Part shown: piece after piece, positions 9,942 to 64,000 of the stretch
Position numbering within the stretch: position 1 is the first letter of the stretch
Layout: each line of letters opens with the position of its first letter
Virus record (IMG/VR): IMGVR_UViG_3300032313_001465
Location: 84,582-148,581 of that record
Direction: 5' to 3' (one strand)
Length of the DNA: 64,000 nucleotides
Source: a virus
Notes under the pieces: model-generated
Told to the model about the DNA's origin: nothing
Seen by the model: the letters and a program-made list of their open reading frames with translations, nothing else
Databases searched by the model: none
Program-made: the position numbers and the translations under genes

Positions 9942-9976
9942 ATTTAACTATTATATTATCTGTCATATTTATGGGT

Positions 9977-11282: not shown

Positions 11283-11606
11283 ATGAAAAAATCAGAATTA
11301 AGACAAATTATTAAAGAGGAAATTAGTAAGGTGTTGAGTGAGATACAAACACCAATAGCTAATAAAACAGACAAATTTTTATTATATAGAAAGCCATCAT
11401 CTTCCCCTAGTCCGGGTCATGGTGCATATCTATTTTCATCTGGAAATACCCTAGATGAGTTATTTGATAATTGGATATTAACTATGCAATCCGGAGGATA
11501 TGGGTATAAAGGTCAATATTTAGATAATGAGCGCAAACGATTTGATATTGAACAAGAAAAATATTGGTCATCTCCTAGTTCATTTTACACACTCAAAATA
11601 AAATAA
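11283..11606 (+). CDS. Small protein of unknown function with class A leader, 107 aa
   Basis: The N-terminus MKKSELRQIIKEE then ISKVLSE is the archetype of the class A amphipathic leader, with IKE and LSE as (I/L)xE sites. The remaining 85 residues contain GHGAYLFSSGNTLDELFDNW and a Tyr/Gly-rich segment but no motif I can name. The gene starts 11 bases after the LRR gene and the next gene repeats the same 5' coding sequence. Probable packaged cargo. Confidence 0.6.
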   Translation: MKKSELRQIIKEEISKVLSEIQTPIANKTDKFLLYRKPSSSPSPGHGAYLFSSGNTLDELFDNWILTMQSGGYGYKGQYLDNERKRFDIEQEKYWSSPSSFYTLKIK

Positions 11607-11611
11607 ATATA

Positions 11612-12004
11612 ATGAAAAAATCAGAATTAAGACAACTTATTAAAGAAGAAGTTGAATCTATAGTAAATGAGACACGTACTAAAGATTTTGAAGTAAAAGA
11701 TGAAATTGGTAAATTTTTTGTAGTTACATCCCCATATAAAGATAGTACTAAAGAAGATATATTATTTGATTCTGATGTTTTTCATTTTGCAAATCAAGTT
11801 AAAGAAGGACTATCATTACATGATGTTATAGGATTATACAAAAACAAATCAGATGCCAATAGAATAGCAACTGAAGCCTTAAAAGAACGTGATACCCATT
11901 TAGATGAATTAAAATCATCAATGGAAGAATTCAGAAACCATAAAAAAGAAACAGAAGATAAAAAATCAAAAGCTAAGGAATTAATTCAAAAATTAAAAAA
12001 ATAA
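11612..12004 (+). CDS. Helical protein of unknown function with class A leader, 130 aa
   Basis: The leader MKKSELRQLIKEE then VESIVNE is nearly identical in DNA and protein to that of the gene before it. The body has a small alpha/beta segment (about residues 25-85) and ends in a highly charged Lys/Glu coiled-coil-like helix. It overlaps the next start by one base (TAATG). No family recognised. Confidence 0.58.
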   Translation: MKKSELRQLIKEEVESIVNETRTKDFEVKDEIGKFFVVTSPYKDSTKEDILFDSDVFHFANQVKEGLSLHDVIGLYKNKSDANRIATEALKERDTHLDELKSSMEEFRNHKKETEDKKSKAKELIQKLKK

Positions 12005-18199: not shown

Positions 18200-18202
18200 A
18201 AT

Positions 18203-21078: not shown

Positions 21079-21495
21079 ATGATAAAACTTTTAGATCTTT
21101 TACGCGAAGAAAAGCTTGATATCCTTAAACCTAGACGCTCTGAGGAAGAACGCCAAGCTAACTTTCTCATTGCAACCAATAAAAAAATTGAACAATACAT
21201 AAAGGATGGAGGCAAAGGTGATCTTAATCTACAAAATACCCCAATTACTACATTACCAAATGATTTAACAGTTGGAGGTAATCTTTATTTAGATGGTAGT
21301 AAAATTACTACATTACCAAATGGTCTAAAGGTTGGTGGTTATCTTGATTTAGATAATACTAAAATTTCCACATTACCAAATGATCTAAAAGTTGGTAGTG
21401 ATCTTGATTTAAGAAATACTCCAATAAGTGAAAAATATTCCGAAGAAGAAATTAAAAAAATGGTTCCCGGAGTAAAAGGCGATATTTATACATAA
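21079..21495 (+). CDS. Leucine-rich-repeat protein with class B leader (3 repeats)
   Basis: Paralogue of the protein at 10735: the same leader MIKLLDLLREEKL, the same connector (NKKIEQYIKDGGKGDL) and tail (EEEIKKMVPGVKG) flank three full 20-residue LRR units plus partial ends. At 138 residues it is two repeats shorter. High DNA similarity at both ends points to a fairly recent duplication with change in repeat number. Role unknown; likely a binding protein delivered with the head. Confidence 0.72.
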   Translation: MIKLLDLLREEKLDILKPRRSEEERQANFLIATNKKIEQYIKDGGKGDLNLQNTPITTLPNDLTVGGNLYLDGSKITTLPNGLKVGGYLDLDNTKISTLPNDLKVGSDLDLRNTPISEKYSEEEIKKMVPGVKGDIYT

Positions 21496-21505
21496 ACATA
21501 AAATA

Positions 21506-22051
21506 ATGAACAAACTAAACAACTTAAACGAAATTACATCAGCTAACCAAGCTGATATCAAAATCCCAAATACTCTATCCCCAGATGTAACTAAAATGTT
21601 AATCGAAAGAATAGGAGATGAATATACTGCTCATTATTTTTATAGAAATGCATCTAACTGGTGTGATGATAAAGCATATAAAAAAGCAGCCGCATTTTTT
21701 AAAGCCGAAGCTGAAAGCGAATTAACACATGCCGAAAAATTACAAACATATTTAACAGGATGGAATATAATGCCTATCATTCCTCCAGTAAAAATGATCC
21801 CTTCATTCACTAATCTTATTGATATAGTAAACAAAGCATATGAAATGGAATACAATTTATTCTTATCATACAATTCAAATTCATCATCTGTTTTTCCTAC
21901 TGACTTAGCAACTTTTGATTTTTTACAAGAATTAAGACAAATCCAAAACCAGGCAATAGCTGAATATTCTGATTTATTAAATGCAGCTCAATTAGTTAAT
22001 GTGTCTAATAATTTTGAATTATTATACTTCGAAGGAAAATATTTTAAATAA
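21506..22051 (+). CDS. Ferritin-like diiron protein
   Basis: A four-helix ferritin pattern is visible: DEYTAHYFYRNAS supplies E39, ESELTHAEKL supplies E72 and H75, a central helix (AYEMEYNLFLSY, near residue 113) supplies another Glu, and FLQELRQIQNQAIAEYSDLL the last Glu/Gln. Such enzymes oxidise Fe(II) and store iron in a shell. At 181 residues it is near the family length (about 165-175) plus an N-terminal extension MNKLNNLNE with an LNE site. The extension and its leader-gene neighbours suggest capsid packaging, which would be unusual for a ferritin. Confidence 0.82.
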   Translation: MNKLNNLNEITSANQADIKIPNTLSPDVTKMLIERIGDEYTAHYFYRNASNWCDDKAYKKAAAFFKAEAESELTHAEKLQTYLTGWNIMPIIPPVKMIPSFTNLIDIVNKAYEMEYNLFLSYNSNSSSVFPTDLATFDFLQELRQIQNQAIAEYSDLLNAAQLVNVSNNFELLYFEGKYFK

Positions 22052-22426
22052 GTGATTAAGCTTATAGACATATTCAATCAACTTCTTCAAGAAGAAAAAG
22101 AAAAACGTGATAGATGTTTACGTATTGCTGATCGCAAATACGATAAACCATCTGCTTATAAATCAGGAGCCGTTGTAAGGTGTCGTAAAGGAGAGATTTG
22201 GAAAGACTTAAAAGAAGAAGAATCACTCCATAAATGGTTTAAACGTTCTGGTCCTAAAGGTAAAGAAGGTGGATGGGTAGATTGCAACGCACCTGATGGT
22301 AGTGGAGGATATAAAGCATGTGGTAGAAAAAAAGGTGAAAAACGTTCTAAATACCCATCTTGTCGTCCTACACCTGCACAATGTAAATCACCTGGAAAAG
22401 GTAAAAAATGGGGAAAAACAAAATGA
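22052..22426 (+). CDS. Basic Cys-containing protein with class B leader, GTG start
   Basis: The GTG at 22052 is chosen because MIKLIDIFNQLLQEE then matches the class B leader (LQE site). The body is basic and Gly-rich: LHKWFKRSGPKGKEGGWVDC, then repeated K/G with single cysteines (KACGRK, PSCRPTPAQC). This LHKWF-type module recurs in large phages as a small conserved domain of unknown function. The stop overlaps the next start (ATGA at 22423-22426). Nucleic-acid binding is plausible from charge. Confidence 0.6.
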   Translation: MIKLIDIFNQLLQEEKEKRDRCLRIADRKYDKPSAYKSGAVVRCRKGEIWKDLKEEESLHKWFKRSGPKGKEGGWVDCNAPDGSGGYKACGRKKGEKRSKYPSCRPTPAQCKSPGKGKKWGKTK

Positions 22427-23121
22427 TCAAACTATCAGATATCTTAAAAGAAATTATTGAGGGAACTTGTGGATATAATACAGATGTTAAAACAGGTAAA
22501 AAATTAGATACACCTGGTGGATTAAAAGAAGTAGATCCTAAAAAAGGAACAGGTAAAAAACCTAAGGGATCAGGTCGTCGTTTATACACAGATGAAAATC
22601 CAAAAGATACTGTATCTATTAAATTCAAAACTAAAGAAGATATAGTTGATACATTAAATAAAGATTCATTTAAAGCTAAATCCCACGCTCGCCAATCCCA
22701 AATTATTAATTTAATACACCAACGCGTTAGAGCTGCATATGGTAAAGCAAAAGATCCTGAAGTAAAATCTAGATTAAAACGCGCTCTAGACTATATTGAA
22801 TCTCGTAAAGAATCATCTAAAAAGAAAACAGAACGTTTAAATAAGCTAAAAGAAACATCAGACCCACAATCAGGTAAAGCAGCACCTTATGGTTCAGGAT
22901 ATGCTCCTGTTAAAGAATTAGTAACAGATACAGAAGTTATCTGTGATAACTGTGGATGGGAATGGGATATTGAAGATGGAGGGGAAGATTTATATATTTG
23001 TCATAAATGTGGTCATGATAATACTCCAGAACAATTAAATGAAAAATGTTGGAAAGGATATACTCAAAAAGGTATGAAAACAATGTTTGGTAAAAAATAT
23101 CCAAATTGTGTAAAAAAATAA
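22423..23121 (+). CDS. Zinc-ribbon protein with class B leader, 232 aa
   Basis: Start placed at 22423 (MIKLSDILKEIIEG) and not 22408, since it restores the leader and an ATGA overlap. A basic helical domain follows (about residues 75-140), then a zinc ribbon CDNCGWEW plus ICHKCGHDN (near residues 170-195) and a C-terminal CWKGYTQKGMK module with KKYPNC. The parts look like beads on a string, with LNE between ribbon and tail. DNA or RNA binding is plausible; no enzyme motif seen. Confidence 0.6.
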   Translation: MIKLSDILKEIIEGTCGYNTDVKTGKKLDTPGGLKEVDPKKGTGKKPKGSGRRLYTDENPKDTVSIKFKTKEDIVDTLNKDSFKAKSHARQSQIINLIHQRVRAAYGKAKDPEVKSRLKRALDYIESRKESSKKKTERLNKLKETSDPQSGKAAPYGSGYAPVKELVTDTEVICDNCGWEWDIEDGGEDLYICHKCGHDNTPEQLNEKCWKGYTQKGMKTMFGKKYPNCVKK

Positions 23122-23123
23122 CA

Positions 23124-23131
23124 TATTTATA
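23124..23131 (+). promoter_or_regulatory. TATTTATA motif, candidate late promoter
   Basis: TATTTATAA ends within 8 bases of the ATG at 23140; it starts right after the stop codon of the zinc-ribbon gene. Confidence 0.4.
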
Positions 23132-23139
23132 ATTAAACA

Positions 23140-23457
23140 ATGGTAAAACTACTTCAATTACTAACTGAAGCTAAAGAAAGCTTTGAACAATTTGCTACAA
23201 ATCGTTTAGCAGGTGCTGAAAAAATTATAGCTAATGCCAAAGAAAAGGGTGGTGATGCTTTATTAACATACACCCACTTTAAAATAAAACCATCTTACTA
23301 TAAAAAAGCTATAGATGGGAAATTTGATAAAGAATCCGCTAAAAAAGAATTTGAGCAAACATACAAAAAAATATCATTAGATATGACTCAAACTGAATTT
23401 CAAAGAGAGGTTGGTCGTTTAGAAGTATTAGGTGAACTATTAATAAGAGAAAAATAA
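23140..23457 (+). CDS. Small helical protein with class B leader, 105 aa
   Basis: MVKLLQLLTEAKE is a class B leader variant with an LTE site. The remainder is helical and charged (NRLAGAEKIIANAKEKGGDA, FEQTYKKISLDMTQTEF) with no cysteines or catalytic motif. The next gene begins directly after its stop. No family recognised. Confidence 0.55.
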   Translation: MVKLLQLLTEAKESFEQFATNRLAGAEKIIANAKEKGGDALLTYTHFKIKPSYYKKAIDGKFDKESAKKEFEQTYKKISLDMTQTEFQREVGRLEVLGELLIREK

Positions 23458-23458
23458 T

Positions 23459-23878
23459 ATGATTAAATTAACAGATATATTAAACGAAGCAGAGATAAAT
23501 AAATGTCCGTCTCCAACTCAAAGTATTGAGTTAAACCTTCAAAATAGACAGAAGGCAATTAATGAATATGGATATGGTCCCTTAAATCCTAATGAACCTA
23601 ATGAAAAGTTTTGGCAAGCTAAAGCAGATATGTGGAAACTTGATTCTGTAAAAGAGGCTAAAACATCACGTTGTGGTAATTGTGCGGCATTTGATGTTAC
23701 AGAAAAAACACTAAATTGTATAGCTAAAGGAATAGGAAACGATGAAGGATCAGAAGATCCATTTGACGTAATTAAAGCAGGACAATTAGGATATTGTAGG
23801 TTTTTAAAATTCAAATGTGCTGCTGCTCGAACTTGCGATGCTTGGGTTGTTGGTGGTCCAATTAAAGATCCAATGTAA
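23459..23878 (+). CDS. Cys-cluster (metal-binding) protein with class B leader, 139 aa
   Basis: The leader MIKLTDILNEAE (LNE site) precedes a compact Cys-rich domain: CGNCAAF, NCIAKG, GYCRF, FKCAAARTCDAW. The six or so spaced cysteines with aromatic neighbours fit an iron-sulfur (high-potential-type) or zinc cluster. It is coupled to the cupin gene by TAATG. Redox or structural role cannot be settled from sequence alone. Confidence 0.6.
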   Translation: MIKLTDILNEAEINKCPSPTQSIELNLQNRQKAINEYGYGPLNPNEPNEKFWQAKADMWKLDSVKEAKTSRCGNCAAFDVTEKTLNCIAKGIGNDEGSEDPFDVIKAGQLGYCRFLKFKCAAARTCDAWVVGGPIKDPM

Positions 23879-24141
23879 TGAAACCATATACTGACGTTTT
23901 AACAACGGAAAATACAATTATTAGGGAGTTTGGTGATAACATAGACCCCGTTGAATTAAAATGGCATATGGACTCTTCTTCCCGCCACGTTACCATTTTA
24001 GAGGGTAAAGGATGGAAATATCAAGAAGATAATAAATTACCTTTGGAACTTAACGAAGGGGATTGTATATTTATACCAAAACAAACATTTCACCGTATTT
24101 ATAAAGGAACAACCCCATTAAAAATAAAAATTAAACAATGA
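23878..24141 (+). CDS. Small cupin-fold protein, 87 aa
   Basis: A single cupin domain: ELKWHMDSSSRHVTILEGKG contains H30 and H37 near the first metal motif, and LNEGDCIFIPKQTFHRIY carries the second motif with PxxxxH. It has no leader peptide, unlike both neighbours, so it may act in the cytoplasm. Metal and substrate are unknown. It overlaps the next gene by four bases. Confidence 0.68.
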   Translation: MKPYTDVLTTENTIIREFGDNIDPVELKWHMDSSSRHVTILEGKGWKYQEDNKLPLELNEGDCIFIPKQTFHRIYKGTTPLKIKIKQ

Positions 24142-24428
24142 AAAAACCAGAATTAAAGCAAATTATTAAAGAAGAAATACAAAAGATATTAAGTGAACAG
24201 CAAAAACGTATGCAAAAGCTTGCAGGTATTAACGAAGATAACACATTTAGTGACAATTACACAGTTAGTAATGAACAATATAAATTGATGGATAGTTATG
24301 TAAATCAACGTGCACTCCGTGATTTTCTAAATGCCGCTGAAAACATGATGGAAGATTTTCATGAAGCAGGATTTCCGGCAAGAGATGCATTTTATTGGTT
24401 TTATACTAAGCTAACTGCAAATATTTAG
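24138..24428 (+). CDS. Small protein with a composite class A plus class C leader, 96 aa
   Basis: MKKPELKQIIKEEIQKILSE is a class A leader and is followed directly by QQKRMQKLAGINE, the class C sequence, so both types occur in one protein. Sites LSE and INE could be cut in turn. The last 60 residues are helical (LRDFLNAAENMMEDFHEAGF). This gene links the two leader classes and supports a shared function. Body function unknown. Confidence 0.6.
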   Translation: MKKPELKQIIKEEIQKILSEQQKRMQKLAGINEDNTFSDNYTVSNEQYKLMDSYVNQRALRDFLNAAENMMEDFHEAGFPARDAFYWFYTKLTANI

Positions 24429-24463: not shown

Positions 24464-24745
24464 ATGGCAAAATTAAACAAACAATTCCGACGTATGCAAA
24501 AGCTTGCAGGAATTCTTAACGAAAACGAGGAAATAGATAATTTTATTGATGTATTAACAGATATGGCTATTAAAGCTAACATCATTAAAGACAAAGATAT
24601 AAATAAAGACGAAGTAATAGATGCATTATATGATACATGGGAAGATATGGGATTTGATGATTATGAAGAAACAGGACAGGGGATTAGTACATCAGATTAT
24701 AATAGATCTTTAGAAATATTTACCAATTATATTAAAGATAAATAA
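24464..24745 (+). CDS. Small acidic protein with class C leader, 93 aa
   Basis: MAKLNKQFRRMQKLAGILNE is a class C leader with LNE at its end; FQKLAGII at the scaffold C-terminus is the closest match. The body is acidic and helical (DVLTDMAIKANIIKDKDINK). No catalytic residues are evident. It is the last gene before a GC-rich structured region. Confidence 0.58.
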   Translation: MAKLNKQFRRMQKLAGILNENEEIDNFIDVLTDMAIKANIIKDKDINKDEVIDALYDTWEDMGFDDYEETGQGISTSDYNRSLEIFTNYIKDK

Positions 24746-27116: not shown

Positions 27117-28016
27117 ATGAAGAAATCTGATCTTAAAAAACATATTAAAGAAGAAATACTTTCGATCCTAAAAGAAGCATCAACAGCATTAGTAACTACT
27201 AAAGGAGGAACAAAACCTGTATCATTCTCATCCCCTTCAGAATTAAGCGCTCTTAAAACGGATGCTAACGTATCATCAATCACAACAACAGCAGGGCAAA
27301 AGATTAAAGAAACTAAAAAAGAAATGAAAGAAGATAAATTCGATGATAAAATAACAAATCTTGAAAAATATACTTATACTGTAAATGGGAAAAAAGTAAC
27401 TCCGGAAATTGGTTATTTTGATCATTCATTAAAAGCTATGATATCCACTCCAAGAAGTGGTGATGAGTATTTTGATTATGAATTTTATAGAATTGGCGAA
27501 CCTGATGAAAGTGGTAATATTGAATTATCTCCTGAAAAAGGTAAAAAAGGAATGTATACTGAAGAAATGGATACTTCAGGATTTAAATCTGGTAGAGAAT
27601 TTATTAATATAAAATTACAAAAATATCCTAAAGCTGTAGCTAAAATTAATCAATTAATTAATATGATTGGTGAAGATAAATTCACAATGGAAATGGCTAA
27701 ATGGTTGTTTGATTTCTTTAATAATGCTTCATACGAAAGTCCAGTTAACGAAGCAAAAATTGAATCTGATTTTTTTGAACGAGAACCTAAATCTAAAGAT
27801 ATTGAGAAAGGAGAAGGCATAATAGCTAAAACTACAAAGCTTTTAAAATTTCAAAAAGAATTAAAAACATTATCTAAAGATATGCAAGATTTAGCTGCTG
27901 AATATAGAGAAGCTGAAGGATCTGATAAAGATGAAATTTTACGAACATTAAAAGTTAAAACTGCTGCTAAAAAGGAATTAGAGAAAAAAATAGAACAACT
28001 TGAAAGATATGTATAG
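27117..28016 (+). CDS. Internal-type protein with class A leader, 299 aa
   Basis: MKKSDLKKHIKEEILSILKE is a class A leader ending in LKE. A Thr/Ser-rich linker and an alpha/beta domain follow (YTYTVNGKKVTPEIGYFDHS, about residues 84-104). Residues 200-299 include another NEAK-type site and a long charged coiled coil (KKELEKKIEQLERY at the end). It immediately precedes the head module and overlaps the next start. Probably a capsid-internal protein; function unknown. Confidence 0.55.
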   Translation: MKKSDLKKHIKEEILSILKEASTALVTTKGGTKPVSFSSPSELSALKTDANVSSITTTAGQKIKETKKEMKEDKFDDKITNLEKYTYTVNGKKVTPEIGYFDHSLKAMISTPRSGDEYFDYEFYRIGEPDESGNIELSPEKGKKGMYTEEMDTSGFKSGREFINIKLQKYPKAVAKINQLINMIGEDKFTMEMAKWLFDFFNNASYESPVNEAKIESDFFEREPKSKDIEKGEGIIAKTTKLLKFQKELKTLSKDMQDLAAEYREAEGSDKDEILRTLKVKTAAKKELEKKIEQLERYV

Positions 28017-33993: not shown

Positions 33994-35205
33994 ATGAAAA
34001 CATTACAAACACAATATAATCTTATTAAAGAAGGAAAAGGAAGTAAACATGTATTTTTAAAGGAAGCAAAAAGCTTATATCCTGACATGATTACTAATTT
34101 TTCAACTTTTGAACAAACTGAAAAAATTCTTAAAAATAGAGGAGTAATTAACGAAAATTTTGTTGGATTACAACCTATTAACGATTGGGAACCATCTCCA
34201 AAACAAGACTATGAAATAGCATTTAAAAAATTCTTATCTGAAGTAGAAGAAGAAAAAGTTAAAGCTGATACTAAAAAAGTGTCTAAATATGTAGAAGATA
34301 CTGATGCTCATAGTTTTGATAATAAAGATCGTAAAAATATTGATAATTTAAGTGGTCAAGAAGTACTTAATGGGTTTTATACCGAATTAAAAGCGCCTAA
34401 AAACGCAGATAAAACGAAAGACGAATTAATGGATATCGTTACTAAAAATCTATCAAAAGATCCGTTATACTACATTAAAAACGGCCAATTTGGAACTGAA
34501 GGAGTGGGATATACTGAAGACGCTCCAGGTTTAGGTAAGCCTAAAGAAGCAAAAGGTAAATATAAATCAAGTGGATATGGCGATTTAGATAATAAACAAA
34601 CAGCTCCAAAATCAAACGTTAAGGATTCAGGAAAAAGTGAATACAAAACTGGTATGCCTAAGAAAGTAAAAGAAATGGATATGAAAGCTCAATCTTCTAA
34701 AGGTGTACAAAAAATGGCTACTCCTGGTAAACCAAAAACTATAAAACTAAATGAAATAGGAATGTTTCATGATCCTATGGGATATAATAAAGGAGCAAAA
34801 TCTCAAAAGGAAGTAGCTCGTGATATATTAATGAATGCTGGATTGTCTGATGAAGAAATAAAAAAGTTCATTAGTGATAATATGTTTAAAAAAGGAAGAT
34901 TAGATGATTTAGCTAAAGAATATATTAAATCCCTTAAAGGACTAAATGAAAATCAAGAATCAAATACAGATGTATTAAAAGATTTAATATCAAGACATGA
35001 TTGGTACTTTGAAATGAGTGATGATAATAGAAAATATAAAGATGGTCAAGCATCTGAAAAGAAAATTATGGATTTAGTAAATAGAATGGGAGATGAAGGC
35101 AAAAAAATCTATAATTCAATGGCACCAAAAGATAGACAATTAAAAGAATCCGTAGTTGATAGAATAATAGAATCTATTCTTGAAAGACTTAAGAAAATTA
35201 AATAA
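33994..35205 (+). CDS. Prohead core-like protein with multiple cleavage sites, 403 aa
   Basis: The leader MKTLQTQYNLIKEGKG has IKE, and HVFLKEAK adds LKE. MKTLQ and the charged composition resemble T4 internal proteins, which begin MKTYQ. Residues 90-240 are very hydrophilic and Lys-rich, probably disordered (KPKEAKGKYKSSGYGD). The C-terminal 120 residues are helical with further LNE and LKE sites. It immediately precedes the protease. A core component or internal protein that is chopped during maturation is the best reading. Confidence 0.6.
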   Translation: MKTLQTQYNLIKEGKGSKHVFLKEAKSLYPDMITNFSTFEQTEKILKNRGVINENFVGLQPINDWEPSPKQDYEIAFKKFLSEVEEEKVKADTKKVSKYVEDTDAHSFDNKDRKNIDNLSGQEVLNGFYTELKAPKNADKTKDELMDIVTKNLSKDPLYYIKNGQFGTEGVGYTEDAPGLGKPKEAKGKYKSSGYGDLDNKQTAPKSNVKDSGKSEYKTGMPKKVKEMDMKAQSSKGVQKMATPGKPKTIKLNEIGMFHDPMGYNKGAKSQKEVARDILMNAGLSDEEIKKFISDNMFKKGRLDDLAKEYIKSLKGLNENQESNTDVLKDLISRHDWYFEMSDDNRKYKDGQASEKKIMDLVNRMGDEGKKIYNSMAPKDRQLKESVVDRIIESILERLKKIK

Positions 35206-35206
35206 A

Positions 35207-35827
35207 ATGAGTAAACAACTTCTAATAGAAACTAGACCATTCCAAGTTAATCCAATGCAACTTGTTGAAGGAACCAAAGGATCTTCAGGAAATCCATTAG
35301 TAGAAGGTATTTTAGCTACAGTAGAAGTAAAAAATGGAAATGGAAGATACTACAAGAGAGAGTTATGGGAAAGGGAATTAGAAACATACATGCAAAGTAT
35401 TAAAGAAAATCGTGCAACTGGAGAATTAGATCACCCCAGCACTGAAGTTATTAACTTAAAAAATGTATCTCATGCTATCAAAGATATTTGGTGGGATGGG
35501 GACAACATAATGGGTAAAATCGAAATTCTACCTACCCCATCAGGTAATATCCTAAAAGCACTTATAGAAAGCAATATCTCAGTAGGAGTATCTTCAAGAG
35601 GAATGGGTACTTTAAAACAAGAAGGCGATTTAATGGAAGTACAAGATGATTTTACATTAACATGTTGGGATTTTGTATCTACTCCTTCTAATCCAGGTAG
35701 CTGGATGCATCCAATAAATGGAATGATGAACGAAGGTTTACAATCAATTAAAACAAATAAGTATTCTAAAGTAAATTCTATTCTTTTTGAAATATTATGC
35801 GCTCACGGCACTTGCCCAATAATTTAA
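35207..35827 (+). CDS. Prohead core protease (T4 gp21-like, peptidase S77 family)
   Basis: The start at 35207 (MSKQLLIE) is chosen over an in-frame upstream codon that would overlap the previous gene by 26 bases. Catalytic motifs are GELDHPS (H76) and GVSSRGMG (S129 or S130, nucleophile), as in T4 gp21, with length 206 against 212. Its own N-terminus has LIE and LVE sites that fit self-processing. It should cut scaffold, capsid and leader peptides after (I/L)xE. A strong terminator follows. Confidence 0.88.
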   Translation: MSKQLLIETRPFQVNPMQLVEGTKGSSGNPLVEGILATVEVKNGNGRYYKRELWERELETYMQSIKENRATGELDHPSTEVINLKNVSHAIKDIWWDGDNIMGKIEILPTPSGNILKALIESNISVGVSSRGMGTLKQEGDLMEVQDDFTLTCWDFVSTPSNPGSWMHPINGMMNEGLQSIKTNKYSKVNSILFEILCAHGTCPII

Positions 35828-36028: not shown

Positions 36029-37096
36029 ATGTCAACAAACAGAGATTTATTAAAAGAAGCGATCGCTGACGCTAAAGCAGTAAAAGATACAGCAATTGCA
36101 AACGCAAAAATGGCTCTTGAAGAAGCATTTACTCCACATTTAAAATCTATGTTCTCCGCTAAAATCAACGAGATGGAAGAGGAAGATATGGATGAAGATA
36201 TGGATTACAATGACGAAAACATAGAGCAAAACGAAGCCAAAAAAAGAGGTGGAAAAAATGAAAAGGTTGTTAAAGAATTCTATTTAGAAGAAGACGAAAT
36301 CAATCTAGAAGAACTTATGTCTGAATTAGAAAAAGATGAAATGGAAGAAGTAATTAATGATCCTAGAGGTCCTAGAGCTCACGGTAATATAGCTTCTGGA
36401 GGAATGTCAGATGATGCTTTAATGGAAGCCGAAGAAGAAACTGAGGAAGAAATGAGTATTGAAGACATGTCTGAAGAAGATTTAAAAGATTTCATTGAAA
36501 GTGTAATTAAAGACATGGTTGAAGCTGGAGAAATTGAAGCTGGTTCTGAAGAAGAAGAAGAAGAAGAAGAAGAAGGTGAAAGTATTGATGAGTTCTTAAA
36601 CGAAATGGAAGGTGATGACCTTAAAGAATATGGTCAAGAACAACCTATATCAGTTGAAGACGCTTTATCAATTGTATGTAAATCATATCCAAACAATGCA
36701 TTATGTAAAGGAATGAAAGAAGGCAAAGGTGCAAAAGAAAAATCAAACAAAGAATTAGAAGAAGCATACAGAGTTATTAGATCAATGAAAAAAGACATTA
36801 ACGAAGTTAACTTACTAAACGCAAAATTACTTTACACCAATAAAATCTTCAGAGGTAAGAGCTTAACTGAATCTCAAAAGATTAATGTATTAGGTGCTTT
36901 TGACAGAGCAACAACCGCTAAAGAAGCTAAACTGGTATATGAATCATTGTTGAGTAATTTAAAAACACCAACAAGAAACATTCAAGAAAATTTAGGTAGA
37001 GCTTCCAAGTCAGTAACTGTTCCTCAAACAAAACAACCTATTATTGAATCAAATGATATGGTAGCAAGGTTCCAAAAATTAGCAGGTATTATTTAA
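36029..37096 (+). CDS. Prohead scaffold/core protein (T4 gp22-like)
   Basis: It is highly acidic, helical and just upstream of the capsid gene, as expected for the scaffold. Residues 1-50 contain DLLKEAIADAKAVKD, a heptad pattern; Glu runs lie near residues 150-190 (EEEEEEEEGESIDEF). The extreme C-terminus VARFQKLAGII matches the class C cargo leader (FRRMQKLAGII). This suggests that the cargo leader mimics a scaffold assembly element. Many LKE, INE and LME-type sites fit destruction by the protease. T4 gp22 is 269 residues; this one is 355. Confidence 0.82.
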   Translation: MSTNRDLLKEAIADAKAVKDTAIANAKMALEEAFTPHLKSMFSAKINEMEEEDMDEDMDYNDENIEQNEAKKRGGKNEKVVKEFYLEEDEINLEELMSELEKDEMEEVINDPRGPRAHGNIASGGMSDDALMEAEEETEEEMSIEDMSEEDLKDFIESVIKDMVEAGEIEAGSEEEEEEEEEGESIDEFLNEMEGDDLKEYGQEQPISVEDALSIVCKSYPNNALCKGMKEGKGAKEKSNKELEEAYRVIRSMKKDINEVNLLNAKLLYTNKIFRGKSLTESQKINVLGAFDRATTAKEAKLVYESLLSNLKTPTRNIQENLGRASKSVTVPQTKQPIIESNDMVARFQKLAGII

Positions 37097-37136: not shown

Positions 37137-38780
37137 ATGGCAAACATTCAAAACTTACTCGAATCAGCTAACCCGTATAAATCACTACAAGGTGATGCGG
37201 CTAGATTAGCAAACAAATGGAGTAGAACAGGATTGTTAGAAGGTATCAAAAATGAAACCGAGAAAAACAATATGTCTATGATCCTTGAAAACCAAGCAAA
37301 ACAATTGGTAATTGAAGCCTCTCAAACAGGAGGTGGTACTTCTTCAACAGCTACTTTTACAGCAGGTGTTGGTGAACAATGGGCAGGTGTAGCTCTTCCG
37401 TTAGTTCGTAAGATCTTCGGTCAAATTGCATCAAAAGAATTCGTTAGTGTTCAACCAATGAACTTACCTTCAGGTCTAGTGTTTTTCTTAGATTTCCAAT
37501 ATGGTACATCTAAAAATCCATTTACAGCAGGTAAATCAATGTATGGTGATACTGGTTCTAACTTTGGTAATACAAACACTGGTGGTCTATATGGTGCTGG
37601 TAGATTTGGTTACTCAGTTAACAACACTTCATCTATTCAGGCAGCAACAACTGGTTCAGCTACTTGGTCTACTTTTGATCTAGATAGTGATTATTCAGCT
37701 TCAGCAGCCGCTGGTTCTTGGAAAACATTAACTGTAACTTTATCATCTACAACTGATTTCTTAGCAGCTAGATCATTTACTCTTACTTCTGCTTCTAACA
37801 TCGCAGTAACAGATAACTTACCTGCATTTACTACTTTTAATACAGCAAATAACACTGTAACTTTCGTTATTACTGGTTCAAAAATAACTGATGCTTTTGC
37901 TCCAGCTGGTTCATTACCAAACGTTACTTGTTCATATTCATTACAACCAACTGATAAATACAGAGGTGATTTTGAAGATGCTAACACTGCTTTGAACGCA
38001 AACAACAGTTCAATTACAATTCCTCAAATCAACGTTCAAATGAGATCTGAAGCAATTGTTGCTAAAACAAGAAAATTAAAAGCAGCATGGACTCCGGAAT
38101 TCGCTCAAGATTTAAATGCCTACCATGCATTAGATGCTGAAGCTGAATTAACTAGCATTATGAGTGAATACATCAGTTTAGAAATTGACTTAGAAATTTT
38201 GGATATGTTGATCGAAACAGCAGCCGCAGGTACTGAATATTGGTCAGCAGTAAATAACCAAAGTTTAAGTGTAAGTGGTACTACTGTAACTAACAACCCA
38301 TCTTTAGGTTTCTTTAACACACAAGGACAATGGTTCCAAACTTTAGGAACTAAAATCCAAAAATTATCAAACGCAATTCACCAAAGAACATTAAGAGGTG
38401 GTGCAAACTTCATCGTTTGTTCTCCAACAGTAGCAACTATCTTGGAATCAATCCCAGGTTTTGCAAGTACTTCTGATGGTGAAGCTTCAAAAATGACTTA
38501 TGCATTTGGTGTACAAAAAATGGGTCAATTGAATGGTAGATATCAAGTATACAAAAATCCATACATGACAGAAAACACTATATTGATGGGTTACAGAGGT
38601 CAACAATTCTTGGAAACAGGTGCAGTTTTTGCTCCATATATTCCATTGATCATGACTCCGTTAGTGTACGATCCAAACACATTTACTCCTAACAAAGGTC
38701 TATTAACTAGATATGCAAAGAAAATGGTAAGACCTGAGTTTTATGCAAAGATCTTCGTTTCAGGTTTAAATACTCTATAG
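37137..38780 (+). CDS. Major capsid protein (T4 gp23-like, HK97 fold)
   Basis: MANIQNLLESANPYKSL starts an N-terminal delta domain of about 60 residues; the probable cleavage is after VIE60, just before ASQTGGGT, similar to T4 gp23 cut after residue 65. Recognisable core parts include RKIFGQIASKEFVSVQPMN, the E-loop region, and the C-terminal RYAKKMVRPEFYAKI. Length 547 is close to T4 gp23 (521). An A-rich leader and codon choice unlike neighbours (more GGT, GCT) fit very high expression. A terminator follows. Confidence 0.93.
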   Translation: MANIQNLLESANPYKSLQGDAARLANKWSRTGLLEGIKNETEKNNMSMILENQAKQLVIEASQTGGGTSSTATFTAGVGEQWAGVALPLVRKIFGQIASKEFVSVQPMNLPSGLVFFLDFQYGTSKNPFTAGKSMYGDTGSNFGNTNTGGLYGAGRFGYSVNNTSSIQAATTGSATWSTFDLDSDYSASAAAGSWKTLTVTLSSTTDFLAARSFTLTSASNIAVTDNLPAFTTFNTANNTVTFVITGSKITDAFAPAGSLPNVTCSYSLQPTDKYRGDFEDANTALNANNSSITIPQINVQMRSEAIVAKTRKLKAAWTPEFAQDLNAYHALDAEAELTSIMSEYISLEIDLEILDMLIETAAAGTEYWSAVNNQSLSVSGTTVTNNPSLGFFNTQGQWFQTLGTKIQKLSNAIHQRTLRGGANFIVCSPTVATILESIPGFASTSDGEASKMTYAFGVQKMGQLNGRYQVYKNPYMTENTILMGYRGQQFLETGAVFAPYIPLIMTPLVYDPNTFTPNKGLLTRYAKKMVRPEFYAKIFVSGLNTL

Positions 38781-45492: not shown

Positions 45493-45500
45493 TATTTATA
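45493..45500 (+). promoter_or_regulatory. TATTTATA motif abutting a start codon
   Basis: TATTTATAATAAA is immediately followed by the ATG at 45506. If it is a promoter, the message would be leaderless or nearly so. Confidence 0.42.
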
Positions 45501-45505
45501 ATAAA

Positions 45506-49073: not shown

Positions 49074-49111
49074 CCTCTTCGTATATGTATAATAAACGAA
49101 GGGGATTTTTT
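49074..49111 (+). terminator. Rho-independent terminator after sheath gene
   Basis: CCTCTTCGT pairs with ACGAAGGGG (one G-U pair) around a 13-base loop, then six T. The T-run abuts the ATG of the GIY-YIG gene, so the terminator sits where that gene's leader would be. Confidence 0.8.
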
Positions 49112-49819
49112 ATGGTAATATATATTACAACAAATGCAATTAATGGTAAAAAATATATAGGTAAGGATTCAAATAATAATCCTAAATATCTAGGCTCTGG
49201 TACTTTATTAAAAGATGATATAATTAAGTATGGTAGAGATAATTTCAAAAAAGAAATATTAGAGCACTGTAATACTGATGAAGAATTAATGATAAGAGAA
49301 AGTTATTGGATTAAATACTATAATGCTATATTATCTGATAAATACTATAATTTAGTAGATTTTAGTGCTGGGTGGAATTTGAATAAACTTGGGGAAGAAA
49401 AATATAATTTTATTAGAGAAAAATTATCTAAGTCTAAAATAGGCATAAAACCCAATATAAAAGATAGGGATGCTAAAAATAAAAAAATTCAAAAATCATC
49501 AAAAGGGAAAGCAAAACCTGAAGGATTTGGTGATAAAATATCTAAAACTAAACAAACCCAAAACCTTAAATATTCTCAAGAACACTGTGATAAAATATCT
49601 AAAGCCAAAACCGGAAAAAAACAACCCCAATCATTTTTAGATAAAAAATATAAACCTATATTGCAACTAGATAAAGAAAATAACATAATATGTACATTTA
49701 AAAGTATAAATGATGCGGCTAATAGTAATTTATTATTTAAAAGATCTAATATAAGCTGTTGTTTAACAGGACTTTCAAAATCTGCATATGGTTTTAAATG
49801 GATATATAAAAATAGTTAA
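49112..49819 (+). CDS. GIY-YIG homing endonuclease, 235 aa
   Basis: The ATG at 49112 is used because the upstream ATG at 49085 lies in a terminator loop. VIYITTNAINGKKYIGKDS (residues 2-20) is the catalytic core, followed by YLGSGTLLKDDIIKYGRDNF and RESYWIKYYNA with the Glu. NUMOD3-like (KPEGFGDKISKTK, EHCDKISKAKTGKKQP) and NUMOD1-like (ILQLDKENNIICTFKSINDA) elements bind DNA. This subfamily differs from those at 20290 and 45506. How it is transcribed past the terminator is unclear. Confidence 0.85.
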   Translation: MVIYITTNAINGKKYIGKDSNNNPKYLGSGTLLKDDIIKYGRDNFKKEILEHCNTDEELMIRESYWIKYYNAILSDKYYNLVDFSAGWNLNKLGEEKYNFIREKLSKSKIGIKPNIKDRDAKNKKIQKSSKGKAKPEGFGDKISKTKQTQNLKYSQEHCDKISKAKTGKKQPQSFLDKKYKPILQLDKENNIICTFKSINDAANSNLLFKRSNISCCLTGLSKSAYGFKWIYKNS

Positions 49820-49842: not shown

Positions 49843-49869
49843 GGGAACCTATTTAGGTTCCCTTTTTTT
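49843..49869 (+). terminator. Terminator between convergent homing genes
   Basis: GGGAACCT pairs with AGGTTCCC around ATTT, followed by seven T. A shorter A-run on the left would give T on the other strand, so it could also serve the minus-strand gene whose coding end overlaps it. Confidence 0.8.
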
Positions 49870-51333
49870 ATATATAAATTTCATATTACCACAATCCCAA
49901 ACCCTCCTAAATCCATTATCTAACATGTTTTGATATTCCGATTTTTCTGCATCAAATATATCTAATAATTTATTTAATTTGTGTTTTTGACATGACATCC
50001 TATTTAATATATTATTATTTTTCCAATATATGTAAGATGGAGATGTATTAGTATTAAATTCAAAACCTAATGTTTTATACAAATTCCCATCAAAAAACCT
50101 CCTATCAGCAAAACTCACAATATCTAAATTATCATTATTACTAATGAAATATTTAAATAATTTTGAGGCTCCTCCGACAACAGTAGTATTTAATTTATTA
50201 CAAAATCTAATCATTTCAAATTCATTTGAATTTTTCTTAAATCTATTTTTACCAAAAGTCATAATAGAAACTAATTCATTATTATAATACAATCCTAAAG
50301 AAACAGAAGCATGAGTATAACCTTGCATGTGATTTTCATTTAGAAATTTTCTAATTATAGTAGTATCTTCAATTTTATTAACTGTACATTTACGAGCATA
50401 TATTTTATCATCAAATACTCCCAATTTACTTAAAATTATAGATTGTATAATTGGTTTTTTAAAAATCCATTCATAATCTAAAATATGAATTAAATTAATC
50501 CCCACTTCATTACATTTTTCTGTTTTATATAAATGGTAATTTTTATATTTCCCCATAGATTCTGAATGCCAGTATACTCCATTTATTTCAATAGCTAAAT
50601 TATGTGACTTTATAAAAACATCAATTTCCTGTCTATTAGGTAATATATCTCTTCTATTTAAACATATATCTGAAGATAAAAGATGATTAGATAAGAAAAC
50701 TACCAATTCATCTTCAATTAAAGAGTATCCTTTATAATCAGAACACTTACATGATGGAAGATAACCATTACTTAAAAATACTTCAGTAACCTCAGAACAT
50801 TTATTACATTGAAATTTAAATTTATTCCTAAATAAATGATTTACTTTATTTTGCTCTAAATATTCTTTATCAAATAAAGGAACCATTCCGGATGTATTTT
50901 GATAGTTTATTAATTTTTCCCACTTTAAATTAACAAAATTTTTTCTATCATGTATTTGCCCTTTTAATTTTACAGATATCTTATCTGAAATATCTTTATT
51001 TTGAGATGCAAATACACACCCATATCTTTCAAAAACAGTATTGTTAGATTTATCTTTAAACTCTTTAACTAAAAATGGATTATTAACACCATATTTTTCA
51101 ATTAAATTATTTTTATATTTATCTTGTACTTCTTTAGATTTAAAGGCTATTTCATTCCCATATTTTTCTAAACATGTTTTTTTTCTTTTTTCCATCCACT
51201 CTCTATCAACTCCCTTATGTTGTTGAGCACATTTTTTAGTACAAAAATCTCTAGCAGATGAGGGTCGAGTTTCAAACATAACGGAACAATGTTTACATGT
51301 ATTTTGAATTGGTGGTTTTTTTGGACGTGCCAT
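49849..51333 (-). CDS. EDxHD-type homing endonuclease on the minus strand
   Basis: The only minus-strand gene in the window. N-terminal zinc knuckle (CKHCSVMFETRPSSARDFC, then KKCAQQH), repeated YG-x-x-N/F units (TCLEKYGNEIAFKSKEVQ, then IEKYGVNNPFLVKEF) that look like NUMOD-type DNA-binding modules, then a second Cys cluster (CNKCSE, CKCSD). The nuclease core is EIDVFIKSHNLAIEINGVYW, WHSES, YHLYK and HILDYEW. The C-terminal domain (IVSFADRRFF, RVWDCGNMKFIY) is shared with the gene at 38889. It lies between sheath and tube. Confidence 0.78.
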   Translation of the reverse strand: MARPKKPPIQNTCKHCSVMFETRPSSARDFCTKKCAQQHKGVDREWMEKRKKTCLEKYGNEIAFKSKEVQDKYKNNLIEKYGVNNPFLVKEFKDKSNNTVFERYGCVFASQNKDISDKISVKLKGQIHDRKNFVNLKWEKLINYQNTSGMVPLFDKEYLEQNKVNHLFRNKFKFQCNKCSEVTEVFLSNGYLPSCKCSDYKGYSLIEDELVVFLSNHLLSSDICLNRRDILPNRQEIDVFIKSHNLAIEINGVYWHSESMGKYKNYHLYKTEKCNEVGINLIHILDYEWIFKKPIIQSIILSKLGVFDDKIYARKCTVNKIEDTTIIRKFLNENHMQGYTHASVSLGLYYNNELVSIMTFGKNRFKKNSNEFEMIRFCNKLNTTVVGGASKLFKYFISNNDNLDIVSFADRRFFDGNLYKTLGFEFNTNTSPSYIYWKNNNILNRMSCQKHKLNKLLDIFDAEKSEYQNMLDNGFRRVWDCGNMKFIYKKREPK

Positions 51334-61098: not shown

Positions 61099-61725
61099 AT
61101 GCCATATTATCCACTCTCTCAAATAAAAACCAATTTATATACTAATGGGCAAGAATTTACTTTTACCCCATATACTCCAAGTAATTCATATGTCGGATCG
61201 TATTGGAGTACATCTGATGGGAAATTTTTTACAGGTAAAACCCCCCAAGATCTTCCAAATAATGAGATATTTAAAATACCAAATGGTGATCCTACAATAC
61301 CTCAACCATTCTCACAAATTACTTTAGATATAATTTCATCAGTTGAAAGTCAACCTAGTCTTGAAACATATGTAGTGACTAAAAAAATAGATCCTAATTT
61401 TTCAATTTCCGTCCCTTCTCAAAACATAACACTTCCAACAACCCAAGACTATCAAGTAGGTGAATTTAGAAGATATTTTTGTAAAAAAACAAACGAGTTA
61501 ATATATATAGAAATTGATAAATCTACTTACGATAAATTAGTAAGTAAAAATCCACAAATTATATGGCAGTTATATACTCCCATTAATTTAGCATGGCAAA
61601 TATCGGGAAATAAAGAAAAAGTAGCTATAACTAATAAAAACATAGTATCATTAGCTATGCAGAGACAAAAATTATATCAATTTGATGAATATTTAAAATT
61701 TGATTATACAAAATATTTTCAATAA
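61099..61725 (+). CDS. Tail/baseplate structural protein, 208 aa
   Basis: A beta-rich N-terminus (NGQEFTFTPYTPSNSYVGSY; DGKFFTGKTPQDLPNNEIF) is followed by a helical C-terminus (IVSLAMQRQKLYQFDEYLKF). It begins one base after the hub gene stop and is the last gene of the tail cluster. Composition is virion-like, without enzyme motif. Confidence 0.5.
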   Translation: MPYYPLSQIKTNLYTNGQEFTFTPYTPSNSYVGSYWSTSDGKFFTGKTPQDLPNNEIFKIPNGDPTIPQPFSQITLDIISSVESQPSLETYVVTKKIDPNFSISVPSQNITLPTTQDYQVGEFRRYFCKKTNELIYIEIDKSTYDKLVSKNPQIIWQLYTPINLAWQISGNKEKVAITNKNIVSLAMQRQKLYQFDEYLKFDYTKYFQ

Positions 61726-61776: not shown

Positions 61777-62205
61777 ATGAAAGTAACAGAATTTAGAAAA
61801 CTAATCCGAGAAGAAATAAGTAAGGTGTTGAAAGAAGAGAAACTTCCTGAAGACACAAAATACGATATTGATGATTTAATTGATAATGTTATTATAACCA
61901 CACTTATTGAAGATATGGGATTAACCCCTATAGGTCTGACTCAAGCTATTCATTATTTGATTCAAAAATTACAAATAAAGTATCAACAAATAAAAGGTGA
62001 AAATAGTTTAGCTGAAAATAGTATTAATACTTATTACAAAGACTTAATAATCCAACAAATTAATAAACGATTGTTTAAAATATTTGATAGAGGTGGAATG
62101 GTAGAATCTGAATACCAAGATCTTCAAAATTATCTTAAAATGTTAGATGATAAAAACAACAAACAATCAAAAACAAACAAAAACAATGAAAACAACAGAA
62201 TTTAG
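61777..62205 (+). CDS. Class A leader protein of unknown function, 142 aa
   Basis: MKVTEFRKLIREEISKVLKEE is a class A leader with IRE and LKE sites. The body is helical (DDLIDNVIITTLIEDMGLTP; HYLIQKLQIKYQQIKGENSL) and ends in a hydrophilic Asn/Lys tail translated from the CAAAAAC repeats that precede the next leader. That tail suggests the stop codon was acquired by read-in to the neighbour's spacer. It overlaps the next gene by 20 bases. Confidence 0.58.
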   Translation: MKVTEFRKLIREEISKVLKEEKLPEDTKYDIDDLIDNVIITTLIEDMGLTPIGLTQAIHYLIQKLQIKYQQIKGENSLAENSINTYYKDLIIQQINKRLFKIFDRGGMVESEYQDLQNYLKMLDDKNNKQSKTNKNNENNRI

Positions 62206-62491
62206 AAAACTAATCCGAGAAGAAGTTCGTAAAGTAGTTAAAGAAAATGAATTTAATGATTTAAATTCAATAGTTCAAAAACTTAAACCAAGATGGGGTG
62301 ATGTATCTATAAAAGATAATAAAATACGGTTGAGAACTTATTATAAGAACGGTAATCTAAAAAATTGGTATACTATTGAAAAAATAGGTGATGATATGTA
62401 TCGTTTTGGTAGAGGAGGAAAACAATTAAGAGATTGGTCTTTAGATGATTTAATGTTTAATCTTGTATATAACAAAAATATTAGTTTATAA
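62186..62491 (+). CDS. Class A leader protein of unknown function, 101 aa
   Basis: The ATG at 62186 gives MKTTEFRKLIREEVRKVVKE, an exact class A leader; an upstream in-frame ATG is inside the previous gene. The body (about residues 25-101) has a beta hairpin (NKIRLRTYYKNGNLKNWYTI) and ends in a helix. No known motif. The leader DNA is nearly the same as at 61777, 62940 and 63845. Confidence 0.58.
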   Translation: MKTTEFRKLIREEVRKVVKENEFNDLNSIVQKLKPRWGDVSIKDNKIRLRTYYKNGNLKNWYTIEKIGDDMYRFGRGGKQLRDWSLDDLMFNLVYNKNISL

Positions 62492-62527
62492 AAACAACAA
62501 ACAATCAAAAACAAAAACAAAAACAAA
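62465..62527 (+). repeat. AACAATCAAAAAC-type spacer repeats
   Basis: CAATCAAAAACAAAAACA-type spacers recur before the leader genes at 62186 (62158-62185), 62528 (62493-62527) and 63493 (63462-63492). They contain no gene and could serve as homology for cassette exchange. Confidence 0.6.
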
Positions 62528-62926
62528 ATGAAAAAACAAATACTAAGCGAACAATTTCGACGTATGCAAAAATTAGCAGGAATTATTAATGAAGGTCAAG
62601 AAAAATATCCAAAAGGTTTTACTCCATATACACCCACCAAAGAAGACGATGAAAATTATGATGGAAAAGTATTAGCTGCCTATACAGCACCTATGGATGG
62701 GTGGGATGAAAATAATTCGGATACTGTAGTAGTTATGAAAGATGAGGAGGGCTTTTGGGTAGATGGATATCTTAGCTTTGGTGATTTTGAAGACGAGGAA
62801 GGTACAGGACCATTCAAAACCCAAAAAGAAGCCGAAGATAAGGCTTATGAAATAATGGAAGACATTGTAGATAATTGGGAAGATGAGGATTATGATGATG
62901 AAGATGATGACGACGATGATTATTAA
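62528..62926 (+). CDS. Acidic protein with class C leader, 132 aa
   Basis: MKKQILSEQFRRMQKLAGII then NE is the purest class C leader and is repeated almost base for base at 63493. The middle contains VVVMKDEEGFWVDGYLSFGD, a small beta domain, and the C-terminus is a run of Asp and Glu. Sites LSE and INE could be cut. The acidic tail resembles DNA-mimic or core proteins. Function unknown. Confidence 0.6.
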   Translation: MKKQILSEQFRRMQKLAGIINEGQEKYPKGFTPYTPTKEDDENYDGKVLAAYTAPMDGWDENNSDTVVVMKDEEGFWVDGYLSFGDFEDEEGTGPFKTQKEAEDKAYEIMEDIVDNWEDEDYDDEDDDDDDY

Positions 62927-62939
62927 TTAAAAATAAACA

Positions 62940-63461
62940 ATGAAAGCAACAGAATTTAGAAAACTAATCCGTGAAGAAGTTAGAAAAATATTAACTGAAG
63001 CAAAATCCGAAAATTATCCTTTTATGTCAACTCCAGAGCAAGAAAAATTATATGATAGACTTGCTACAGACTTAGAAAAATTTATAAATAATATAGCTAC
63101 AAAATTAGAAATTAATCCTTCAAATATTAGAATGATATGTAGTGGATTAGGGGATAAAGGAGAATATAGAAATAAAGGATTAGTAGTTCAAATTAAAGCT
63201 AATGATAGTAAATGGAAAGGGATACATGGTAATAATCTTATTATACAAACTATAAATGACGAAGGTGTATTAATAGATACAAAAGAGGTTGAAATAAAAG
63301 GATCTAAAAATAAAGAATTAAGAGATATTTGGAATAAAGCAATAGATCTAGAAATGGACGATTATGTGTCACAGTTTAATACAAAATTAGCAAGTTCACT
63401 TACCCCAGAAGAAGCAAAATTAATACATCAATATACTCCAGTAATAATAACTGGTAAATAA
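62940..63461 (+). CDS. Class A leader protein of unknown function, 173 aa
   Basis: MKATEFRKLIREEVRKILTE is a class A leader with LTE. The body is alpha/beta (LEINPSNIRMICSGLGDKGE; GLVVQIKANDSKWKGIHGNN) and ends in a helical Pro/Glu segment. No catalytic motif recognised. With the gene before it, it forms one copy of a repeated two-gene cassette. Confidence 0.58.
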   Translation: MKATEFRKLIREEVRKILTEAKSENYPFMSTPEQEKLYDRLATDLEKFINNIATKLEINPSNIRMICSGLGDKGEYRNKGLVVQIKANDSKWKGIHGNNLIIQTINDEGVLIDTKEVEIKGSKNKELRDIWNKAIDLEMDDYVSQFNTKLASSLTPEEAKLIHQYTPVIITGK

Positions 63462-63492
63462 TCAAAAACAATCAAAAACAATCAAAAACAAA

Positions 63493-63831
63493 ATGAAAAA
63501 ACAAATACTAAGCGAACAATTTCGACGTATGCAAAAATTAGCAGGAATTATTAATGAAAGCGAATTTAAAGTGGGGGATACAATAAAAATACCATTTACT
63601 TTATCTACAGGTGATGAAAGTGAAGGAGAAATTTTAGCAATTTCTACATATTTATCTAACAAAAAAGCAATTGATAAGGCTATTAGAGACAGTGGATGGG
63701 AAGGTGGAGAAAAAGAAGAATTAACTTGGTACAAAATAAAAACTCCAGATGGGATCGAATGGATAGATAGTGAGGAATTATCGGTAATGGGTGATGAAGA
63801 TGATGAAGATGATGACGACGATGATTATTAA
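63493..63831 (+). CDS. Acidic protein with class C leader, 112 aa
   Basis: The first 22 residues are the same as those of the protein at 62528 up to MKKQILSEQFRRMQKLAGII, and the last residues again are an Asp run ending in Tyr. The middle differs (FKVGDTIKIPFTLSTGDESE, beta-rich). Ends conserved and centre replaced: a swapped cassette. Function unknown. Confidence 0.6.
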   Translation: MKKQILSEQFRRMQKLAGIINESEFKVGDTIKIPFTLSTGDESEGEILAISTYLSNKKAIDKAIRDSGWEGGEKEELTWYKIKTPDGIEWIDSEELSVMGDEDDEDDDDDDY

Positions 63832-63844
63832 TTAAAAATAAACA

Positions 63845-64000
63845 ATGAAAGCAACAGAATTTAGAAAACTAATCCAAGAAGAAGTTCGTAAAGTATTAAA
63901 CGAGGCTATGTCTTGGGACAAAAACACAATTAACAAATTTTTTGCATATTTGAAACGTCAGCACGGTATGAAAGCAGTCCCTGAATTTAAAACAGATACC
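63845..64000 (+). CDS. Class A leader protein, 3' end outside window
   Basis: The ATG at 63845 starts MKATEFRKLIQEEVRKVLNE (LNE site), then AMSWDKNTINKFFAYLKRQ. The frame stays open to base 64000; 52 residues are visible. It is the second-cassette equivalent of the gene at 62940 with a different body. Confidence 0.6.
   Translation, partial: MKATEFRKLIQEEVRKVLNEAMSWDKNTINKFFAYLKRQHGMKAVPEFKTDT

Follow-up and report, generated by a model that had tools for sequence, protein, structure and literature searches.

Why do neighbouring small genes of a virus begin, and in places end, with almost identical DNA when the protein bodies between are unrelated? The question is raised by an array of small genes in the IMG/VR virus record IMGVR_UViG_3300032313_001465, of which we analysed positions 84,582 to 148,581 (64,000 nucleotides, hereafter the window), that is, the final 64 kb of the 148,581-base record. 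Every gene of this array opens with one of two short leaders, A or B, ahead of its protein body. We propose, with a probability of about 0.78, that the leaders are head-targeting propeptides of a packaging and injection system like that of the T4 internal proteins, leader A being a scaffold-mimic tag. The grounds, all read from sequence, are the repeats themselves, gain and loss of genes with changes of leader, the end of leader conservation at a protease motif, a match of leader A to the scaffold tail, and a prohead protease gene.

A seven-gene array with repeated ends

The last 123 nucleotides of the record are identical to its first 123, so the array sequence continues beyond position 64000 at the record start. 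Seven small genes of the same direction lie between a gene for a 208-residue protein (61099-61725) and one for a 419-residue protein (64852-66111). Leader A, MKKQILSEQFRRMQKLAGIINE, is carried by the genes at 62528 and 63493; leader B, of the type MKxTEFRKLIREEVRKVLxE, by those at 61777, 62186, 62940, 63845 and 64264; and A-rich 5′ DNA common to the array genes precedes each start. An earlier note on this DNA had described a tandem pair of two-gene cassettes, and its open reading frames (ORFs) 62528-62926, 62940-63461, 63493-63831 and 63845 onwards (open at 64000) are as it gave them; the array is longer than it stated, having two further leader-B genes upstream (61777 and 62186). The array genes, with their counterparts in relatives such as the contigs L011 and L028, and the exact repeats are:

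61777..62205, plus strand: array gene 1; leader B; body unrelated to the body at the same place in L011 and L028
62186..62491, plus strand: array gene 2; leader B (the listed ORF start, 62147, precedes the leader ATG at 62186); orthologues L011:7051 and L028:1351
62528..62926, plus strand: array gene 3; leader A (62528-62593), acidic C-terminal tail; orthologues L011:7394 and L028:1690
62940..63461, plus strand: array gene 4; leader B; body homologous to the leader-A protein L016:7374
63493..63831, plus strand: array gene 5; leader A DNA identical to that of gene 3, same acidic tail, other body
63845..64000, on to 64207 past the window, plus strand: array gene 6; leader B; orthologue L028:2101-2463
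64264..64668, past the window, plus strand: array gene 7; leader B, leucine-rich body; L009:387-791
62518..62593, plus strand: 76-nucleotide exact repeat, copy 1, ending on the codon of leader A's Glu22, the last leader codon
63483..63558, plus strand: 76-nucleotide exact repeat, copy 2, identical to copy 1
62894..62970, plus strand: 77-nucleotide exact repeat, copy 1, covering acidic tail, spacer and the beginning of leader B
63799..63875, plus strand: 77-nucleotide exact repeat, copy 2; the switch between L028-like halves (below) falls inside it

The leaders of 62528 and 63493 are identical at 66 of 66 nucleotides. Their bodies, when aligned, are 49.8% identical, which lies within the baseline of shuffled sequences (mean 44.9%, maximum 50.4%, 30 shuffles), and the bodies are therefore unrelated. 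The second genes, 62940 and 63845, share 52 of 60 leader nucleotides and have bodies of 45.2% identity. The tandem pair with near-identical leader, tail and spacer DNA and differing bodies is thus borne out by the two repeats and the body baseline. The only other exact repeat of at least 60 nucleotides in the window is a direct repeat of 68 nucleotides (42143-42210/42875-42942), within a 685-residue ORF (41530-43587). Since the array repeats measure only 76-77 nucleotides and the contig is that of an uncultured virus, collapse or insertion by the assembly at this repeat length may have occurred, judging from the contig alone.

Leader ends, the prohead protease and the scaffold tail

Over residues 1-20 of 31 leader-B proteins with unrelated bodies, conservation runs at 1.0-5.6 bits per position, mostly above 2, in a set whose loci L091-L100 were fetched with the leader-B pattern for residues 1-16 and are unbiased only from residue 17; at residues 22-45 it falls to 0.3-0.9 bits. 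Residue 20 is Glu in 26 of the 31, and residue 18 is L, V or I in 27 (L or I in 17). By this profile, leader conservation ends at [LIV]-x-E, the cut motif of the T4 gp21-type protease; passages of PMC9026906 place T4 gp21 cleavage after L/I-X-E, which the leaders match only when a looser residue is allowed at position 18. A protease gene of this type lies in the window with other head genes; portal and terminase genes are also present in the phage.

35180..35827, plus strand: T4 gp21-type prohead protease (Peptidase_S77, 102 bits, cut-off 27)
36029..37096, plus strand: prohead scaffold, assigned by position (that of T4 gp22) and without a family match of its own; C-terminal tail with the leader-A motif
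37067..37093, plus strand: scaffold C-terminal motif matching leader A
37137..38780, plus strand: major capsid protein, Gp23 family, by family match

Leader A has a second home in this phage. The letters QKLAG occur in five ORFs of the window: near the N-terminus of four leader-A proteins, and at the C-terminus of the scaffold, the gene before the capsid gene. We collected the 24-residue ends of the gene preceding the capsid gene, those of relatives and the window's own (five capsid loci of 80 lacked an upstream gene and were dropped), and the leader-A motif was present in 63 of the 64 distinct tails. A profile built from these tails only gave 151 matches of at least 8 bits among 2,403 proteins, 125 of them C-terminal and the 26 others N-terminal, with none elsewhere (one truncated scaffold falls in both classes of the raw table); on shuffled proteins it gave no match at that threshold. 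The scaffold-tail profile on 2,524 proteins found 31 N-terminal leaders, 122 scaffold C-termini and 6 others, four of which were scaffolds missed by the filter (making 126 scaffold C-termini). A separate DNA-pattern scan of 14 whole records found 17 sites in 9 records (12 N-terminal leaders, 3 scaffold C-termini, one site at the C-terminus of the L268 protein and one inside an ORF of L276), and a reversed control pattern found none in the same records.

The L276 ORF and the L268 protein, also the remaining two profile matches and the two that are neither leader nor scaffold, look like cargo. The ORF of L276 (record G011, 703-2037, 444 residues) has a start like that of leader C, an M-I-K-L-type leader listed below, and two internal leader-A copies, each followed by I-x-E, as if two cargoes had been fused into a polyprotein. 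The L268 protein (record G004, ORF 1494-1781, minus strand), a non-scaffold protein of 95 residues, ends in the scaffold-tail motif, which suggests that the tag can also occupy a C-terminus. Leaders usually continue from the motif into [IL][IL]xE; the scaffold protein stops with the motif. The simplest reading of the match is a shared docking peptide, leader A apparently having been copied from the C-terminal tail of the scaffold.

Gain, loss and exchange of bodies

The close relatives available were the two contigs L011 and L028, the 419-residue gene being 97.9% identical in one and 95.2% in the other; the flanking genes of L028 are 96-98% identical to those of the window. In L028 a leader-B gene and then a leader-A gene come first, with two further bodies, and the orthologues of 62186, 62528 and 63845 follow in that order; the L011 array has one leader-B gene and orthologues of 62186 and 62528. 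A 905-bp unit (62971-63875) is missing in L028: window stretches 62152-62994 and 63793-64228 each match that contig, the two matches overlapping there by 106 nucleotides, and at diagnostic sites L028 agrees first with the 62528/62940 copy and then with the 63493/63845 copy, changing over within the 77-nucleotide tract. The gene at the first array position shares 5′ DNA and leader with its L028 counterpart and has a different body (61777 against L028:346; leader 51 of 60 nucleotides, body at the shuffled baseline). The shared ends thus hold one mapped crossover and one body change at a leader end among these two relatives.

The earlier note had expected rapid turnover of cargo, and here the comparison went the other way. 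Genes 62186 and 62528 stand in the same order in the window, L011 and L028, and leader and body diverged about alike in all six orthologous pairs tested (for example, leader 0.970, body 0.955), with slower evolution of the ends than of the bodies seen in none of the six; the 62186-62528 genes thus show the same bodies at fixed positions with ends diverging equally, the observation that the note itself had named as contrary to its idea. Body exchange in these contigs is real but, given the stable order of orthologues and the equal pace at which their ends and bodies diverge, episodic.

The array site was then followed in 80 relatives' loci, of which 10 had only one of the two anchor genes and were dropped. 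Between both anchors, the site is empty in 55 of the 70 kept and holds one to seven genes in the other 15, giving 29 inserted genes (one of which, in L056, resembles a broken copy of the downstream anchor); 20 of them start, by pattern, with leader A (11) or leader B (9), one L040 leader-B gene having been missed by the pattern. Such a distribution bears on whether the leader proteins could instead be extra scaffold or core parts that dock, help to build the prohead and are destroyed by the protease without being injected. That leader A equals the scaffold tail would suit such a role, as would the effect of T4 IPIII on head assembly described in part of PMC9026906; however, a site with fixed flanks that holds anything from no gene to seven, with differing bodies, is unlike the setting of assembly genes, and some leader-C bodies look enzymatic (P-loop kinase-like), so that we hold this role to be quite improbable.

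In distant comparisons leaders appear, from these alignments, to travel separately from bodies; in close ones the two stay together. All four array genes of L016 have leader-A-type starts, and most array genes of L040 have leader B. The 62940 body, behind leader B, is also that of L016:7374, behind leader A in a distant phage (56% identity in the body alignment), and the similarity resumes beside the predicted cut. One body is common to L040:6718 (leader B), L016:7931 (leader A) and L066:8468 (a further leader type); leader B at 64264 and leader C at 10735 and 21079 all precede leucine-rich bodies; and gp084 of the cultured Flavobacterium phage immuto has, after a different start, the body that 22052 carries after leader C. 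The further leader type, like NFDLKKFLVENKLTxNSxxLxE, is found on several proteins (L101, which is immuto, 3807-4355, 17632-18633 and 18633-18932; L066:8468-8821). The capsid protein of immuto is 58.8% identical, and we regard the phage that carries the array as a T4-like relative of it. A tblastn search of leader B against phages gave no match, probably because the query is short and partly of low complexity; a strict leader-A DNA pattern gave none in viral_contigs.

The suggestion that leaders and tails are anchors for exchange stands in part: the L028 unit loss, the body swap at position 1 and the 62940 body behind leader A in L016 all place breakpoints in shared ends, but acidic tails, present in just 9 of 65 leader-A or -B proteins, are no general ends. 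By these comparisons, then, leaders and tails mark breakpoints. Could the conserved ends be chiefly DNA-level recombination anchors, as the earlier note held, with the protein sequence incidental? The exact repeats, the presence or absence of the 905-bp unit with its switch inside the tract, and the kept leader with a changed body at the first position are what this would predict; we nevertheless think it unlikely, as 22 of 23 leader-A residues are kept in immuto though its DNA is identical at only 53 of 66 positions, as conservation stops at the protease motif, as the motif recurs at scaffold C-termini, and as orthologous leaders and bodies diverge alike. Since the leaders are also conserved at the protein level (protease site, scaffold-tail match), recombination anchoring by them is probably a by-product.

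Cargo, known systems and meaning

Leader genes are also found elsewhere in the genome:

9971..11271, plus strand: two leader-C genes (M-I-K-L-type), for P-loop kinase-like and leucine-rich proteins
11283..12004, plus strand: two leader-B genes
21079..23878, plus strand: stretch with four leader-C genes by pattern (21079, 22052, 23140, 23459)
24138..24428, plus strand: leader B directly followed by the leader-A motif in one protein
24464..24745, plus strand: leader-A gene
27117..28016, plus strand: leader-B gene near the terminase

By pattern, leaders start 18 of 88 ORFs; the pattern missed 63845, which has Gln in its leader, and the true tally in that stretch is 19. The start of 22408 is similar to leader C and unmatched by the pattern. 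This abundance, and the A-rich DNA common to the starts, would also fit a lineage-specific start that aids translation or folding and has spread by gene duplication and body divergence, with no packaging involved. We regard that as very improbable: bodies lie at the shuffled baseline when leader DNA is identical, the same body occurs with different leader families, and the match to scaffold C-termini and the motif at another C-terminus would be left unexplained.

Some bodies and neighbours deserve mention in their own right. The proteins at 9971-10735, 13049-13567 and 21506-22051 include, after leader C, a P-loop kinase/zeta-toxin-like one and a weak match to a nucleotidase; a ferritin-like one begins with MNKLNNLNE. 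The leucine-rich leader-C family has several copies per phage, of varying length (10735-11271 and 21079-21495; L011:9700-10536; L012:3767-4423; L013:8837-10103; L028:4379-4915). ORFs 7753-8193, 20290-21075, 45449-46129, 49085-49819 and 49849-51333, among the structural genes, we take to be homing-endonuclease-like (GIY-YIG-like or zinc-finger starts).

How would the leaders work as head-targeting propeptides? Each cargo protein would start with one of several short helical leaders, which would dock it into the growing prohead; leader A, as a copy of the scaffold's C-terminal tail, would use the contact that serves the scaffold itself. The gp21-type protease would cut after [LIV]-x-E at the leader end, freeing the body in the head, and the body would enter the new host together with the injected DNA and act there, probably by countering early defences. 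Since leader, intergenic spacer and sometimes acidic tail are near-identical as DNA, homologous recombination between these parts could add, drop or swap bodies with the tag staying in frame. Docking, cleavage, injection and an anti-defence function are what we infer.

Several observations weigh against this proposal, besides the biased retrieval of L091-L100. Residue 18 is V in 10 of the 31 leader-B proteins, looser than the L/I of T4, and one of the 64 scaffold tails lacks the motif. Comparison of T4 leaders with gp22, gp67, gp68, gp21 and gp23 found at most 5 of 12 residues alike, so scaffold mimicry is no T4 rule and would be a variant; leader B had no clear head-protein counterpart in the comparison made. 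Strongly acidic tails, as on 62528 and 63493, are at odds with the basic character of T4 internal proteins, though this departure is not one of mechanism. Family and defence-library searches gave no convincing anti-defence match for any body, and a model of the 62940 body (mean predicted local distance difference test score, pLDDT, 71.5, from a two-sequence alignment) had no fold match at E ≤0.001 in PDB or viral libraries. For neither this phage nor a relative did our literature search turn up a proteome of the virion or an N-terminal protein sequence.

Other searches placed the bodies among few relatives. We attribute the PADLOC matches of 62186 (E 0.003) and 62940 (E 6e-4), at 15-17 bits, to chance. 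The 62940 body had no relative in phages or by single-sequence scan of viral_contigs, and an alignment scan with it brought up L016 once more and no other contig; for the 62528 body the sole relatives were the two close ones already known, and its model is of low confidence (pLDDT 58.6). No T4 ip family was among the PHROG and Pfam matches, for which the leaders are too short to judge.

The nearest known system is that of T4. In passages of PMC9026906, T4 internal proteins are basic and have N-terminal propeptides of 10-19 residues that target them to the core; they are injected and block restriction (parts of PMC12373910 and PMC9026906), and, as an excerpt of PMC12373910 describes them, Ip1-3 have only the leader in common and each inhibits a different GmrSD enzyme. 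T4 is also described, in part of PMC9391042, as gaining and losing segments via recombination at short homologies. Like IPI, IPII and IPIII, with their gp21-cut capsid targeting sequence, the array proteins are unrelated small proteins with a common N-terminal leader ending at an (L/I)-x-E type site, in variable gene sets of a phage with a gp21-type protease and a Gp23 capsid. Unlike those of T4, the leaders here have about 16-22 residues and fall into several families, leader A matches the scaffold tail, and some bodies have acidic tails.

At the polymorphic ip locus of T-even phages, Repoila et al. (1994) reportedly saw different bodies exchanged behind a common leader at a fixed locus. The present site resembles it in body exchange behind a shared leader at a fixed place, and differs in phage group, in flanking genes and in having as many as seven genes in tandem between one pair of anchors.

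Two other systems offer partial parallels. The ejection proteins of the giant phages SPN3US and phiKZ are, in the passages compared, head proteins that lose a propeptide by cleavage and reach the host, as we propose here; those passages do not mention a scaffold-tail copy, and no search was aimed at one. In P22 nanocages, as far as the consulted part of PMC9962691 describes them, cargo is loaded as a fusion to the scaffolding protein, whose C-terminal helix-turn-helix is essential for assembly. There, too, cargo enters the shell via a scaffold-derived part; that loading is engineered, whereas here the phage itself appears to load, with a short N-terminal copy and a cut site. No earlier report of such tags or of the leader-A letters was found in the literature searched, which included few subscription journals.

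A wider proposal, which we put forward tentatively and at somewhat less than even odds, is a general modular head-loading code of interchangeable leader families in T4-like phages of this group, in which the scaffold docking tail is reused N-terminally (with its own cut site), C-terminally and inside polyproteins to load many injected proteins, including enzymes, that are exchanged via the tag DNA. A cargo system like that of the T4 internal proteins is itself known; the variant here is the exchangeable tags, one of them copying the scaffold tail. If our proposal is true, the phage loads cargo by copying the docking tail of its own scaffold, as engineers do with P22, and cargo genes could be traded without losing their address label. 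A short readable tag would then identify the packed and injected proteins of an uncultured T4-like phage, a task that normally needs virion proteomics, and would point to candidate anti-defence proteins.
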